Source of the DNA: Epilithonimonas bovis DSM 19482
Lineage (GTDB): Bacteria; Bacteroidota; Bacteroidia; Flavobacteriales; Weeksellaceae
NCBI RefSeq assembly: GCF_900108115.1
Contig: NZ_FTPU01000012.1
Coordinates: 1-64,000 of the forward strand
Direction of reading: 5' to 3'
Length of the DNA stretch: 64,000 nucleotides
Numbering within the stretch: the stretch's first letter is position 1; every line of letters starts with the position of its first letter. Under the pieces are notes generated by a model, which had not been told where the DNA came from, did not search any database, and worked only from the letters and a program-made list of their open reading frames with translations. Shown piece by piece: positions 29,926-51,009 of the stretch. A program made the translations under genes and the position numbers.

Positions 29926-30672
29926 TTAATTCCCTGCCAGCCAATCTTTAAAATCTTTCACTCTATCCCGGCTTACTGTAATCTCTTCATCTGGCTGATA
30001 TTCCAGATCTACTTTGTAAACTGGCGACGTATGAATGTTTTTGATATAATCGGAACTGATAATAAACTGTCTGTTAACCCGGAAAAATTTTGTTTCGTCC
30101 AAAACTTCTACTAATTCGTCTAAAGTGAAGTCTGTCGGAAAATTGCGCTCTTTGGTCTGCAGATACACAATTTTATTTTCGCTGTAGAAACAACTGACAT
30201 CATTGATGGAAACCACTTTGAGATTATAGCCAATTTTCACCAAAATCCTGGATAGCGTTGCTTTTTCTTTCTTAACTATTTGTCTGATTTCCTGCGAATT
30301 AACACTTCCTTCTTCCGGCAGGAAAGATTTGAATTTTTCAATCGCTTTTGCCAGATCTTCTTCTTCAATGGGTTTCAAAAGATAATCAATACTGTTTAGT
30401 TTGAAGGCTTTTAGTGTGTACTGATCAAAAGCGGTTGTGTAGATGATAAAAGCCTTGGTAGAAACTTGATCAAAAATATCAAACGATAAACCATCACCCA
30501 AAACAATATCTGAAAAAATCAGTTGTGGATGTTCATTTTCCTTAAACCAGTCTACTGCTTCTTCCACAGAATTAAGGCTTGTAACAACTTCTAAATCAGA
30601 AAACAAGCTCAATAATTTTTGCAACCTTCTGACTGCCGGTTTTTCGTCTTCGATGATGATCGTTCTTATCAT
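29926..30672 (-). CDS. LytTR-family response regulator
   Basis: A 248-residue two-component regulator. The receiver domain (1-120) has acidic residues in IIEDEKPA, the phospho-acceptor Asp55 in IFSDIVLGD and the conserved Lys in DYLLKPI (about 107). The C-terminal LytTR DNA-binding domain (about 140-245) shows the EN(K)IVYLQT and FFRVNRQFIIS segments. It is the last gene of the kinase-2TM-2TM-regulator group and presumably phosphorylated by the LytS-type kinase. LytTR domains bind two direct repeats of about 9-12 bp spaced two helical turns apart. Such pairs occur at 32723-32755 and 40341-40373, which makes this protein the likely regulator of both. Confidence 0.93.
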   Translation of the reverse strand: MIRTIIIEDEKPAVRRLQKLLSLFSDLEVVTSLNSVEEAVDWFKENEHPQLIFSDIVLGDGLSFDIFDQVSTKAFIIYTTAFDQYTLKAFKLNSIDYLLKPIEEEDLAKAIEKFKSFLPEEGSVNSQEIRQIVKKEKATLSRILVKIGYNLKVVSINDVSCFYSENKIVYLQTKERNFPTDFTLDELVEVLDETKFFRVNRQFIISSDYIKNIHTSPVYKVDLEYQPDEEITVSRDRVKDFKDWLAGN

Positions 30673-31346: not shown

Positions 31347-32666
31347 TTATTTTTGATTGTTCATGATCTCCCTGATCTTTTTCTCTTCCCAATTTTTACC
31401 GATGGCAAAAGTGTTCATCGCATGGGCTGCCAATCCAATTCCCCAGCCTAACATTGGCCAGTAAAACCAAAGCTCCTTGGGAGAAGTAATCAGATTGATA
31501 ATGATTAAAAATGGAATAACGATGCAGTAGGAGATCAGGTTTCCGTAGAAACCTTTCAGTTCTTTTACTCTTTTTACCGCTCTTTCGTAAGCGATATTTT
31601 CTGTTGGCTGTGGGGTGTAAGTTGTCATTGTTTGAGTATATTTTTCTATTAATATTGGGATTTTTACTTTGAAAGATGCTTCTGATTTTTCTATAAAAAC
31701 ATTTTCTTTGGTAAGAAGGGCATAACGCTGGACGATGTTGGCCAAACCAATACCGGCGCTCTCTTTGAGTTGCTCTCTGTGCTGAAGGTTGTTTTCGATA
31801 CAAAGAAATTTGCCTTCGGTAAAGATTCTGATATTAAGCGGTTTATTTGACGTTGCGAAGTTATGTTTGATGCAGTTTTCCAGTAATAACTGTAAAGAAA
31901 GCGGGACTACAAATCTTTGCAAATCATCTGTATTGATATCGAAAATGAAATTAACACTGTCTTCGAACCTGGTTTTCAGCAGATTGCAGTAAATTTCAGC
32001 AAATTCTACCTCATCTTCCACATGCACCATTTCTTTATCTTTCTGCTCGAGAACATAACGGTAAATTTTTGACATCGAGGTCGTGAATTTCTGTGCCTGC
32101 TCGGGATTTTCGTCAATCAAAGCGGTTAAGACATTCAGGGAATTAAAAAGAAAATGTGGATCCAACTGATTCTTGAGCGATTCGAACTGGGCGTTGGCAG
32201 ATTTGGCAATCAGTTTTTGCTCCACCACTTCTTTTTTGGTATTCTTTTTCAGCTCTTCCATAAAGCCTTTTGCATGGAGAAAAGCCGAGATCATCAGCGC
32301 AAAATTGATCATAAACCAATTCGCAAAATTGTATCTTCCGGAAAAGAATTGCGTACTGTCCGCCGCGCCCTGTATCAATACAAAATTGATATAATTGAAC
32401 AGGTAAACCAAAATAACATTCAGGATAACCGTCAAAACGATACCAAGAATCGTACGCCGTTTTGTTTGGTCAACCCAGGAAAAACGCTTATTAAGATAAT
32501 CGTTAAGAACGCCGTTGCTTATTCCCATTCCAAAAGAGTACATGGCCGAAATCAAAAAATTATAGACAAAACCTTCAAAATTCTTTTGATCAGAAAAAAA
32601 TAAAAAGAAAAATAAACTGGATCCCAGCGTTATCCAAAGTAATGTGATGAGTGATTTTCTTTCCAT
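31347..32666 (-). CDS. LytS-type sensor histidine kinase fused to a 2TM domain
   Basis: A 439-residue protein. The N-terminal membrane sensor has four hydrophobic segments (about 7-25, 35-52, 73-98, 115-132). A His_kinase domain follows, with phospho-acceptor His171 in DPHFLFNS, the N-box LLENCIKHN (261-269) and the G-box AGIGLANIVQRY (304-315). The kinase proper appears to end near residue 345. From Met347 a complete 93-residue 2TM domain follows in frame (VKRVKELKGFYGN, WGIGLAAHA, GKNWEEKKIREI), paralogous to the two downstream genes. Met347 (ATG at 31626-31628) could also serve as an internal start. Upstream are LytTR-type repeats, suggesting autoregulation. Confidence 0.92.
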   Translation of the reverse strand: MERKSLITLLWITLGSSLFFFLFFSDQKNFEGFVYNFLISAMYSFGMGISNGVLNDYLNKRFSWVDQTKRRTILGIVLTVILNVILVYLFNYINFVLIQGAADSTQFFSGRYNFANWFMINFALMISAFLHAKGFMEELKKNTKKEVVEQKLIAKSANAQFESLKNQLDPHFLFNSLNVLTALIDENPEQAQKFTTSMSKIYRYVLEQKDKEMVHVEDEVEFAEIYCNLLKTRFEDSVNFIFDINTDDLQRFVVPLSLQLLLENCIKHNFATSNKPLNIRIFTEGKFLCIENNLQHREQLKESAGIGLANIVQRYALLTKENVFIEKSEASFKVKIPILIEKYTQTMTTYTPQPTENIAYERAVKRVKELKGFYGNLISYCIVIPFLIIINLITSPKELWFYWPMLGWGIGLAAHAMNTFAIGKNWEEKKIREIMNNQK

Positions 32667-32683: not shown

Positions 32684-32691
32684 CAAAATTA
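32684..32691 (-). promoter_or_regulatory. -7 promoter element of the kinase operon
   Basis: TAATTTTG on the minus strand, an exact TAnnTTTG, 17 nt before the kinase ATG. No TTTG is present at the -33 distance, which fits activator dependence. Confidence 0.7.
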
Positions 32692-32722
32692 TTCTAATAG
32701 AAGAAGTTAAGCAATTATTACT

Positions 32723-32755
32723 GACCGAACGGTAAAAAAATCCGACTGAATGGTA
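32723..32755 (-). promoter_or_regulatory. LytTR-type direct-repeat operator of the kinase operon
   Basis: Two 12-bp direct repeats on the minus strand, TACCATTCAGTC (32744-32755) and TACCGTTCGGTC (32723-32734), with starts 21 bp apart. The core ACCGTTCGG fits the published LytTR half-site consensus [TA][AC][CA]GTTN[AG][TG] completely. The nearer repeat starts 32 bp from the -7 box. The same arrangement recurs at 40341-40373. Confidence 0.75.
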
Positions 32756-40301: not shown

Positions 40302-40309
40302 CAAATATA
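40302..40309 (-). promoter_or_regulatory. -7 promoter element of the TonB receptor
   Basis: TATATTTG on the minus strand, an exact TAnnTTTG, 19 nt before the receptor ATG, with no TTTG at the -33 distance. Confidence 0.7.
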
Positions 40310-40340: not shown

Positions 40341-40373
40341 GACTGAATGGTAATAATCTGTGACCGAACAGTA
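40341..40373 (-). promoter_or_regulatory. LytTR-type direct-repeat operator of the TonB receptor
   Basis: Minus-strand repeats TACTGTTCGGTC (40362-40373) and TACCATTCAGTC (40341-40352), starts 21 bp apart, the nearer one starting 32 bp from the -7 box. The TACCATTCAGTC repeat is identical to one at 32744-32755. Spacing and distance to the promoter are the same as in the kinase operon. Confidence 0.75.
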
Positions 40374-40375
40374 GA

Positions 40376-40391
40376 TGTTCCACGTAAAACA
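40376..40391. other. Imperfect parS-like palindrome
   Basis: TGTTCCACGTAAAACA differs from the parS consensus TGTTNCACGTGNAACA at one defined position. It is the third and weakest such site, about 6 kb from the candidate oriC. Confidence 0.45.
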
Positions 40392-49088: not shown

Positions 49089-49104
49089 TGTTCCACGTGG
49101 AACA
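49089..49104. other. parS site (perfect palindrome) after mnmG
   Basis: TGTTCCACGTGGAACA, an exact match to the bacterial parS consensus TGTTNCACGTGNAACA bound by ParB. It lies 7 bp beyond the mnmG stop codon. Confidence 0.85.
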
Positions 49105-49111
49105 TTAATGA

Positions 49112-50974
49112 TTATCTTCCTAAATAAACCAGTAATACATTGATATCTGCGGGTGAAACACCACTGATTCTACCTGCCTGAGCAATGGTTTTTGGTTGTA
49201 TTTTAGTCATTTTTTGCTTAGCTTCTGTGGAAAGGGAAGATATTTTTGTGTAATCAAAATCTTCAGGAATTCTGATGGTTTCTAATCTGTTGAGTTTAGC
49301 AACATTTTCCTTTTCTTTCTCTATATAACCTTTGTATTTGATATTGATTTCTGCCTGTTCTCTTACTTCATTATCATATACAGAAGTGATTTCTTTTATA
49401 GTTTCTATCGCTTCTAATTTTTCCAGGGTCATATTAGGCCTTGTTAAGATTTGAGCAGCTCTGTAAGCCTGATCAACAGGAGAGGAGTCGATTGATTCTA
49501 GAATTGGATTGATACTTCCAGGTTTAAGTGAAGTCTCCTTAAGATACATTTCTAACTGTTCGCTTTTGGCTATTTTTTCTTCAACTTTTCTGAGTCTGTC
49601 TTCTTTTGCTAAACCCAGATGATAAGATTTTTCTGTTAATCTGATATCGGCATTATCCTGTCGTAAAAGCAGTCTGTATTCTGCTCTGGAAGTGAACATC
49701 CTGTAGGGTTCTTCGGTACCTTTTGTTATTAAGTCATCGATTAAAACCCCGATATAAGCTTCATCACGATTGAGGATGAATTCCCCCTTATCGTGCACTT
49801 TGTTATGTGCATTAATTCCGGCAATTAAACCTTGTCCTGCTGCTTCTTCGTAGCCGGTTGTCCCGTTGATTTGACCCGCAAAATAGAGGTTTTCAACCAG
49901 TTTTGTCTCTAAGGTATGGTTCAGTTGGGTAGGAGGGAAGTAATCGTATTCTATGGCATAGCCAGGGCGGAATACCTTTACGTTTTCAAAACCTGGGATA
50001 TGTTTCATTGCCTTGATTTGGATGTCTTCTGGAAGGGAAGAACTGAAACCGTTGACATAGATCTCTACAGTTCTCCATCCTTCCGGTTCTACGAATAACT
50101 GATGTCTATTTCTCTCTGCAAATCGGTTGATTTTATCTTCTATACTAGGACAATATCTTGGCCCTGTACTTTGTATTGTGCCATTGAACATAGGGCTTCT
50201 GTCAAAACCAGAACGCAGGATATCGTGAACCGTTTCATTGGTGTAAACAATCTGGCAGCTTAATTGTTTGTTTAATTTTGGAGTATCTAAGTAACTGAAT
50301 TTCTGCGGATTTTCATCACCTTTTTGCTCTTCCATTTTGGAATAATCAAGGCTTCTTCCGTCTACGCGGGGTGGTGTTCCTGTCTTCATCCTTCCGGCTT
50401 CAAAGCCTAGTGAAACCAATTGTTCTGTAATGCCAAAAGCTCTGGGTTCACCCATTCTCCCGCCACCTAATTGCTTGTCACCTACGTGAATCAGGCCATT
50501 AAGAAAAGTACCGTTGGTAAGTACTACAGATTTTGATTTGATTTTGATGCCTAAGGATGTTATAACACCAACGACTTTATTGTTTTCTACAATAAGGCTC
50601 TTTACCATATCCTGGAAAAAGTCAAGGTTTGGTGTATTTTCTAAGGCCAAGCGCCATTCTTCCGCAAACAGCATCCTGTCATTTTGTGTTCTCGGAGACC
50701 ACATTGCAGGCCCTTTGGAAAGATTGAGCATTTTGAATTGAATTGCGGATTTATCTGCCACAATACCAGAGTAACCGCCCATAGCGTCGATTTCTCTTAC
50801 AATTTGCCCTTTCGCAATACCACCCATAGCCGGATTACAGCTCATTTGACCGATGGTTTGCATATTCATTGTAACAAGGAGCGTTTTAGAGCCTAAGTTG
50901 GCAGCGGCAGCGGCAGCTTCGCAACCTGCATGCCCTGCACCAACTACAATTACGTCGTATATTTCTGAAATCAT
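49112..50974 (-). CDS. mnmG: tRNA uridine-5-carboxymethylaminomethyl synthesis enzyme MnmG (GidA)
   Basis: A 620-residue FAD enzyme. The FAD-binding Rossmann motif is VIVVGAGHAGCEAA (9-22), with MGGIAKGQIVREIDAMGG (about 50-67), the conserved cysteine region near FNGTIQSTGPRYCPSIEDK (about 270-288), and the C-terminal GidA-associated helical domain ending AGRISGVSPADINVLLVYL. With MnmE it builds the cmnm5 group on wobble uridine 34. The gene is bracketed by two perfect parS palindromes, fitting the classic location of gidA near replication origins. ybeY lies 53 bp upstream on the same strand. Confidence 0.96.
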   Translation of the reverse strand: MISEIYDVIVVGAGHAGCEAAAAAANLGSKTLLVTMNMQTIGQMSCNPAMGGIAKGQIVREIDAMGGYSGIVADKSAIQFKMLNLSKGPAMWSPRTQNDRMLFAEEWRLALENTPNLDFFQDMVKSLIVENNKVVGVITSLGIKIKSKSVVLTNGTFLNGLIHVGDKQLGGGRMGEPRAFGITEQLVSLGFEAGRMKTGTPPRVDGRSLDYSKMEEQKGDENPQKFSYLDTPKLNKQLSCQIVYTNETVHDILRSGFDRSPMFNGTIQSTGPRYCPSIEDKINRFAERNRHQLFVEPEGWRTVEIYVNGFSSSLPEDIQIKAMKHIPGFENVKVFRPGYAIEYDYFPPTQLNHTLETKLVENLYFAGQINGTTGYEEAAGQGLIAGINAHNKVHDKGEFILNRDEAYIGVLIDDLITKGTEEPYRMFTSRAEYRLLLRQDNADIRLTEKSYHLGLAKEDRLRKVEEKIAKSEQLEMYLKETSLKPGSINPILESIDSSPVDQAYRAAQILTRPNMTLEKLEAIETIKEITSVYDNEVREQAEINIKYKGYIEKEKENVAKLNRLETIRIPEDFDYTKISSLSTEAKQKMTKIQPKTIAQAGRISGVSPADINVLLVYLGR

Positions 50975-50993: not shown

Positions 50994-51009
50994 TGTTCCA
51001 CGTGGAACA
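50994..51009. other. parS site (perfect palindrome) before mnmG
   Basis: TGTTCCACGTGGAACA, identical to the site at 49089-49104, in the 53-bp gap between ybeY and mnmG, 20 bp upstream of the mnmG ATG. Confidence 0.85.

Follow-up and report, generated by a model that had tools for sequence, protein, structure and literature searches.

A candidate LytTR operator shared by four promoters of a Hus-like uptake system in Epilithonimonas bovis and its relatives

In gamma-proteobacteria, the LytS/LytTR systems BtsS/BtsR and YpdA/YpdB control transporter genes (PMC5552118). The sites of LytTR regulators are described, in the available part of PMC4847170, as two repeats of 9–11 nt with 11–13 nt between them and without a common consensus. 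In an oligonucleotide printed there, the YpdB site contains two 10-nt words in direct repeat (GGCATTTCAT) and an 11-nt spacer, which gives the same 21-bp period as that found at the locus described here.

On the side of nutrient uptake, the closest described case is the Hus system of Porphyromonas gingivalis (HusA, the TonB receptor HusB, HusC and HusD). HusA (PG_2227; PDB 6BQS/6CRL) is haemophore-like, binds porphyrin and has HusB as its cognate receptor; HusA homologues are said to be limited to Bacteroidetes (available part of PMC6173696). The available parts of PMC6173696 and PMC10100897 mention no LytTR regulator of hus, and the word LytTR is absent from the latter. DUF6051 hydrolase genes are described as co-occurring with 2TM and LytTR genes (PMC11878206, available part). 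The operator reported here is absent from the available parts of PMC10197871, PMC11237479 and PMC11878206, and among the literature matches listed, which were mostly judged by title or the opening of the abstract and covered few subscription papers, the regulon is not described.

The DNA under study (the window) is a stretch of 64,000 nt from Epilithonimonas bovis DSM 19482, and its relevant features are collected in Table 1. The locus resembles BtsS/BtsR and YpdA/YpdB in that a LytS-type kinase and a LytTR regulator would control a transporter. It differs from them in the word of the boxes, in the small 2TM proteins of the operon, in the putative autoregulation through a site of this kind, and in the putative targets, which are a TonB receptor, a HusA-like protein and a hydrolase. 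The best model for the regulator of the window is BtsR, at 117 bits and thus below the cut-off of 246. With the AgrA/ComE-type regulators, which belong to peptide quorum sensing, it shares the REC-LytTR architecture and repeats that lie upstream of the core promoter, whereas the promoter here is the TAnnTTTG promoter of Bacteroidota. To our knowledge, few LytTR regulons are known in this phylum. The likeness to the Hus system lies in the HusA homologue and the neighbouring TonB receptor, and the difference in the kinase-LytTR pair with its operators and in the additional hydrolase. The latter matches Hydrolase_4/Abhydrolase models, whereas the hydrolases of PMC11878206, as far as its available part goes, are DUF6051 proteins.

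Table 1. Coordinates of the two operators, their promoters and the associated genes in the window
Feature	Position	Strand	Remark
Receptor operator, distal box TACTGTTCGGTC	40362..40373	-	pair in 21/21 receptor orthologs
Receptor operator, proximal box TACCATTCAGTC	40341..40352	-	21 bp start to start from distal box
Receptor -7 box TATATTTG	40302..40309	-	32 bp from end of proximal box
Kinase-operon operator, distal box TACCATTCAGTC	32744..32755	-	
Kinase-operon operator, proximal box TACCGTTCGGTC	32723..32734	-	
Kinase-operon -33-like TTG	32712..32714	-	20 bp before -7 box
Kinase-operon -7 box TAATTTTG	32684..32691	-	TAnnTTTG
TonB-dependent receptor, CarboxypepD_reg domain, 743 aa	38051..40282	-	Pfam
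LytS-type histidine kinase (PF06580), C-terminal 2TM domain (PF13239), 439 aa	31347..32666	-	Pfam
Small 2TM-domain protein, 99 aa	31030..31329	-	PF13239, scanned from an upstream TTG; reading frame
Second small 2TM-like protein, 99 aa	30744..31043	-	reading frame; region 30756-31067 matches the 2TM part of the kinase
LytTR response regulator, 248 aa, proposed binder of all operators	29926..30672	-	PF00072 + PF04397 above cut-off

The original prediction placed two 12-bp words in direct repeat, with a 21-bp period and 32 bp to a TAnnTTTG box, before the receptor gene, and all of these are present at the positions claimed. The same layout was claimed for the kinase operon and was likewise found there (boxes within 32723–32755, period of 21 bp, 32 bp to the -7 box). 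The lack of a -33 element holds for the receptor promoter, which has no TTG 10–29 bp before its -7 box, but not for the kinase promoter, which does carry a -33-like TTG. The LytTR half-site word quoted with the prediction, [TA][AC][CA]GTTN[AG][TG], fared badly: it matches just 45 of 128 boxes, the observed word being ACNRTTCRGT. It is not counted here as defining, because LytTR sites are without a common consensus (PMC4847170, available part). The 10-nt boxes ACNRTTCRGT and the 11-nt spacer of all 64 promoters considered below fit the published LytTR rule. Since single boxes, allowing for 2 mismatches, are no commoner in the window than expected by chance (18 seen, 17 expected), the signal is carried by the pair and its spacing.

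A different reading takes the boxes for the palindromic operators (ACCGNNCGGT-like) of a TetR-type repressor, two dimers of which would bind side by side. The kinase-proximal box, taken alone, reads GACCGAACGGTA on the plus strand and is nearly palindromic. Over the 128 boxes, however, the inner positions are asymmetric: the central TT is found in 123 and 128 boxes and C at position 7 in 119, against G in 70 and A in 55 at the mirror position 4, and position 3 is A in 68, G in 35, C in 23 and T in 2. Moreover, no TetR-type protein is present among the 12 window proteins scanned. The dyad-symmetric TetR-type operator was rejected on the asymmetry of the inner positions and is regarded as extremely improbable.

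Some other sequence elements were observed in the vicinity. Directly upstream of the receptor operator lies the palindrome TGTTCCACGTAAAACA (40376–40391), and two copies of another, TGTTCCACGTGGAACA (49089–49104 and 50994–51009), flank mnmG (49112–50974); both palindromes are parS-like. The pattern TGTTTYACGTRRAACA is exact in 17 of 21 receptor promoters and has one mismatch in 2. The stretch TAATTGCTTAAC, at 32706–32717 between the operator and the -7 box, is found in most kinase promoters and is absent from the receptor and hydrolase promoters.

Conservation of the LytTR-type pair was assessed in a genus sample of 23 genomes, which contains 23 kinase orthologs (71–85% identity, in 22/22 relatives), 21 full-length receptor orthologs (own included) and 20 hydrolase orthologs, the last counted at ≥79% identity to a query from G008 and missing in G011, G014 and G018. 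In all 64 promoters (23 kinase, 21 receptor, 20 hydrolase), the best 21-bp pair has at most 2 mismatches to ACNRTTCRGT, and TAnnTTTG starts 32 nt past the second 10-nt box. Periods of 12–20 and 22–30 bp are found in 0–3 of the 64, and 2 mismatches were never attained in 50 shuffles per upstream region. Both pair and distance are thus kept throughout the orthologous promoters of the relatives. In G019 and G005, only remnants of the receptor and of the HusA-like gene are left (L094 3477–3701; L095 about 450–1240), and the boxes of the receptor promoters survive in partly decayed form. Both genomes retain the kinase operon and the hydrolase, each with its operator.

The promoters differ in their -33 region. 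TTG-N20-TAnnTTTG is present in 23/23 kinase promoters, and no TTG is found 10–29 bp upstream of the -7 box in 14/21 receptor and 9/20 hydrolase promoters. These patterns bear on the direction of control. It might be supposed that the sites serve for repression, or that the regulator can act both as repressor and as activator, in that all kinase promoters, with their TTG-N20-TAnnTTTG, might fire unaided. The sites, however, stop some 32 bp short of the -7 box on its upstream side and do not overlap it in any of the 64 promoters, and the receptor and hydrolase promoters without TTG are as expected of activator dependence. Repression or switching is therefore judged unlikely, though less so than the other alternatives concerning the site itself. 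Activation by the regulator, which we infer from site position only, is the preferred reading.

The distribution of the pattern was determined by scans at several levels. In the 3.35-Mb own genome, the strict pair is found twice, at the receptor and the kinase sites, and its reversed control not at all. The genus scan (ACNRTTCRGT-N(10-12)-ACNRTTCRGT, allowing periods of 20–22 bp) gave 33 matches in 19/23 genomes, every one with period 21, and none with the control. They lie at the kinase operon (15), the receptor (10), the alpha/beta hydrolase (7) and a gene of the 213-aa type beside the receptor (1). The family scan gave 99 matches in 71/296 genomes, with none for the reversed pattern. Of the 66 matches outside the genus, 60 were traced (the other six being G097 and G075 with two each, G155 and G129), and 57 of these precede a 2TM/kinase gene, a receptor, a hydrolase or a gene of the 213-aa type; the three that do not are L127, L135 and L146, the latter two with period 22. 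In all, 90 of 93 traced family matches are at four gene families, so that the pattern is not scattered over unrelated genes. Chance origin of the pair was rejected by the empty reversed controls of the genome, genus and family scans and by the conservation in 64/64 promoters.

Outside the family, the order scan gave a single match in 167 genomes (G393, period 22) versus 2 control matches, and its status as a genuine site is unproven. The G393 match (L210 1679–1710) adjoins a gene for a membrane protein with, by eye, a LytTR-like C-terminus, and a CPBP-like protein is also encoded there. The arrangement seems to us to recall LytTR regulatory systems.

A promoter model (R1), based on sequence only, was trained on 39 promoters from three families; it spans 72 bp, beginning with the first box and ending with the -7 box. 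On the genus it gave 86 matches at E ≤ 7e-4, all located by coordinates at the four families, the next match being at 0.002. Of these, 66 are in the training families and thus partly found by construction (two are receptor remnants). The other 20 are HusA-like promoters, in 20 genomes, none of which was in the training set. Partial matches in G015, G003 and G017 (E 0.005–0.013), just past the receptor and at the HusA-like gene, were not counted. In the own genome, R1 finds the kinase and receptor promoters (C38:32684–32755, 1.0e-14; C38:40302–40373, 6.4e-12), the hydrolase promoter (C80:65876–65946, 1.5e-9) and that of the 213-aa protein (C84:21732–21803, 4.6e-7); the other 8 of the 12 matches at E ≤ 1 are weaker than 0.137. 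The N-termini of the hydrolase and of the 213-aa protein suggest that both are secreted. The small outer-membrane uptake regulon that had been proposed is therefore supported, but it is larger than claimed, with the HusA homologue and the hydrolase on other contigs.

The assignment of these sites to the regulator of the window, also part of the original prediction, is supported by the site before its own operon, by gene linkage and, with the caveats given below, by class-wide co-occurrence. Among 120 family genomes, the regulator is present in 87, the receptor in 60 and both in 58 (E ≤ 1e-60). The two are on one contig in 50 genomes, within 10 kb in 39 and within 50 kb in 48. In genus g10 and in G048, the genes for the receptor, the 213-aa-type protein, (the hydrolase,) a 2TM protein, the kinase, a second 2TM protein and the LytTR regulator are contiguous and make up a single cluster, which carries two to four operators (three or four in g10), and further genera have similar clusters without the hydrolase. 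Given such contiguous clusters, the 8-kb distance between regulator and receptor in the window looks like a broken-up cluster. In divergent genera, both boxes change together (ACCTTTC in both of G024, CAGC ends in both of G086).

A further possibility is that the sites are genuine LytTR sites whose reader is a different LytTR paralogue, or more than one. The genomes contain many candidate relatives of the regulator (loosely 7–39 in 13 genus genomes, and up to 65 in the class search). On the other hand, the site precedes the own operon of the window regulator in 23/23 genus genomes, other genera have the four targets in a cluster with this regulator, and the presence of the site largely tracks its presence, even where the regulator has moved away. 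A paralogue as the reader of the sites is accordingly considered quite improbable, and the regulator of the window remains the proposed binder.

The class-wide co-occurrence was examined in Bacteroidia, where HusA-like proteins are found in 69/395 genomes. Outside the family, 68 loci were annotated, own-family matches being left out (G000, G063 and two in G041), and about 230 bp per gene were scored, upstream of the receptor and the HusA-like gene only. A receptor homologue is near the HusA-like gene in 52/68 loci, and a related LytTR regulator lies within 6 kb in 28/68, in 27 of these together with a kinase. The 21-bp pair with up to 4 mismatches is present in 15/28 regulator-linked versus 3/40 unlinked loci (Fisher p 4e-5, phylogeny-naive), the shuffled expectation being 0.5–0.8% per region with at most two regions per locus. 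In the remaining 13 of the 28 linked loci, the pair has at least 5 mismatches; the word is thus not shared by all, and the regulators of these loci may read a changed one.

The regulator was searched for in 25 chosen genomes, namely the 3 with an operator at an unlinked locus, 19 unlinked ones without operator and 3 linked controls. Each of the three exceptions (G381, G323 and G360) has a regulator elsewhere, 64–70% identical to the query. Of the 19 without operator, 8 have no regulator match at E 1e-30 and 11 have matches of up to 46% identity. HusA-linked regulators in other orders show only 27–53% identity to the queries used in the annotation of the class loci, and since 46% falls within this range, distant regulator orthologs are possible in these 11 genomes.

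The unlinked loci have a distinct pattern of their own: a gene for an HTH_34 winged-helix protein is near HusA in 20/40 of them and the adjoining type of membrane protein in 19, and either is found in 0/28 linked loci. That none of the 68 HusA loci has both a LytTR regulator and HTH_34 suggests that exchangeable regulators serve one uptake module. Going further, LytS/LytTR with 2TM proteins might be a dedicated haem- or porphyrin-responsive switch of Hus-like loci in much of Bacteroidia, module-swapped with HTH_34 and its membrane protein; this generalization is put forward tentatively, as somewhat doubtful.

The 213-aa protein is, by sequence, homologous to HusA (E 2.4e-28 against PDB 6BQS/6CRL over residues 21–210, i.e. 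190 residues). Its gene lies beside the receptor gene in 22/22 genus relatives, near full length in 20 and as a remnant in 2; in the own genome the two are on different contigs (C84 and C38, respectively). The receptor is called HusB-like by neighbourhood alone. A sequence comparison of it with solved structures gave no relative at E ≤ 0.01, and a search for it among named genomes gave one locus, in Epilithonimonas mollis. The groove residues named in the available part of PMC6173696, numbered by a hand fit to the HusA alignment, are changed in the own protein at W130 (to Y), Y164 (to F), L123 (to M), V124 (to A) and F80 (to S). The W130 and Y164 positions are aromatic in 21/23 family sequences each, with the other groove positions changed, and class-wide, the W130 position is G in 38/66 HusA-like sequences. 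With the groove residues only partly kept, haem or another porphyrin is the likely but tentative cargo.

It is nearly as plausible that the regulon serves something other than haem or porphyrin uptake, for example a different ligand or a role in envelope stress, with the HusA-like protein no more than a TPR-like relative; this is given a little less than an even chance. The partly changed groove, the hydrolase without an assigned substrate, and the receptor without a solved relative at the above threshold are in its favour. Against it, the HusA homology spans nearly the whole mature protein, and the proximity of receptor homologues to HusA-like genes extends to most of the class loci.

Taken together, it is highly probable that the element is the operator of the LytTR regulator encoded at 29926–30672, governing an autoregulated four-promoter regulon of a Hus-like uptake system. 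The content of this regulon, like the sites and their spacing, conservation, linkage and co-occurrence, is read directly from the genomes compared. The following scheme is proposed for its operation. The LytS-type kinase (31347–32666), on perceiving its signal, would phosphorylate the regulator, which would bind the two direct 10-bp boxes. These are spaced by two helical turns and, if the start of the -7 box is taken as about -11, occupy roughly -43 to -76. The bound regulator would then recruit RNA polymerase to the TAnnTTTG promoter, and at the receptor and hydrolase promoters, many without a -33-like TTG, it is probably an essential activator. Its four targets would be its own operon (positive feedback), the TonB receptor, the alpha/beta hydrolase (C80) and the HusA-like gene (C84), which together would make up the Hus-like uptake system. 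Because the TTG is general in the kinase promoters and absent from the majority of the receptor promoters and from 9 of the 20 hydrolase promoters, the signalling genes may have basal expression and the uptake genes activator-dependent expression, with positive feedback.

The operator, with one word and one spacing at four promoters, provides a handle on the regulon, and it ties the 2TM proteins and the HusA-like protein to a defined circuit. It also offers a route to what a LytS-type kinase senses. With it, experiments can address how a nutrient-uptake system of Bacteroidota that has received little study is controlled.
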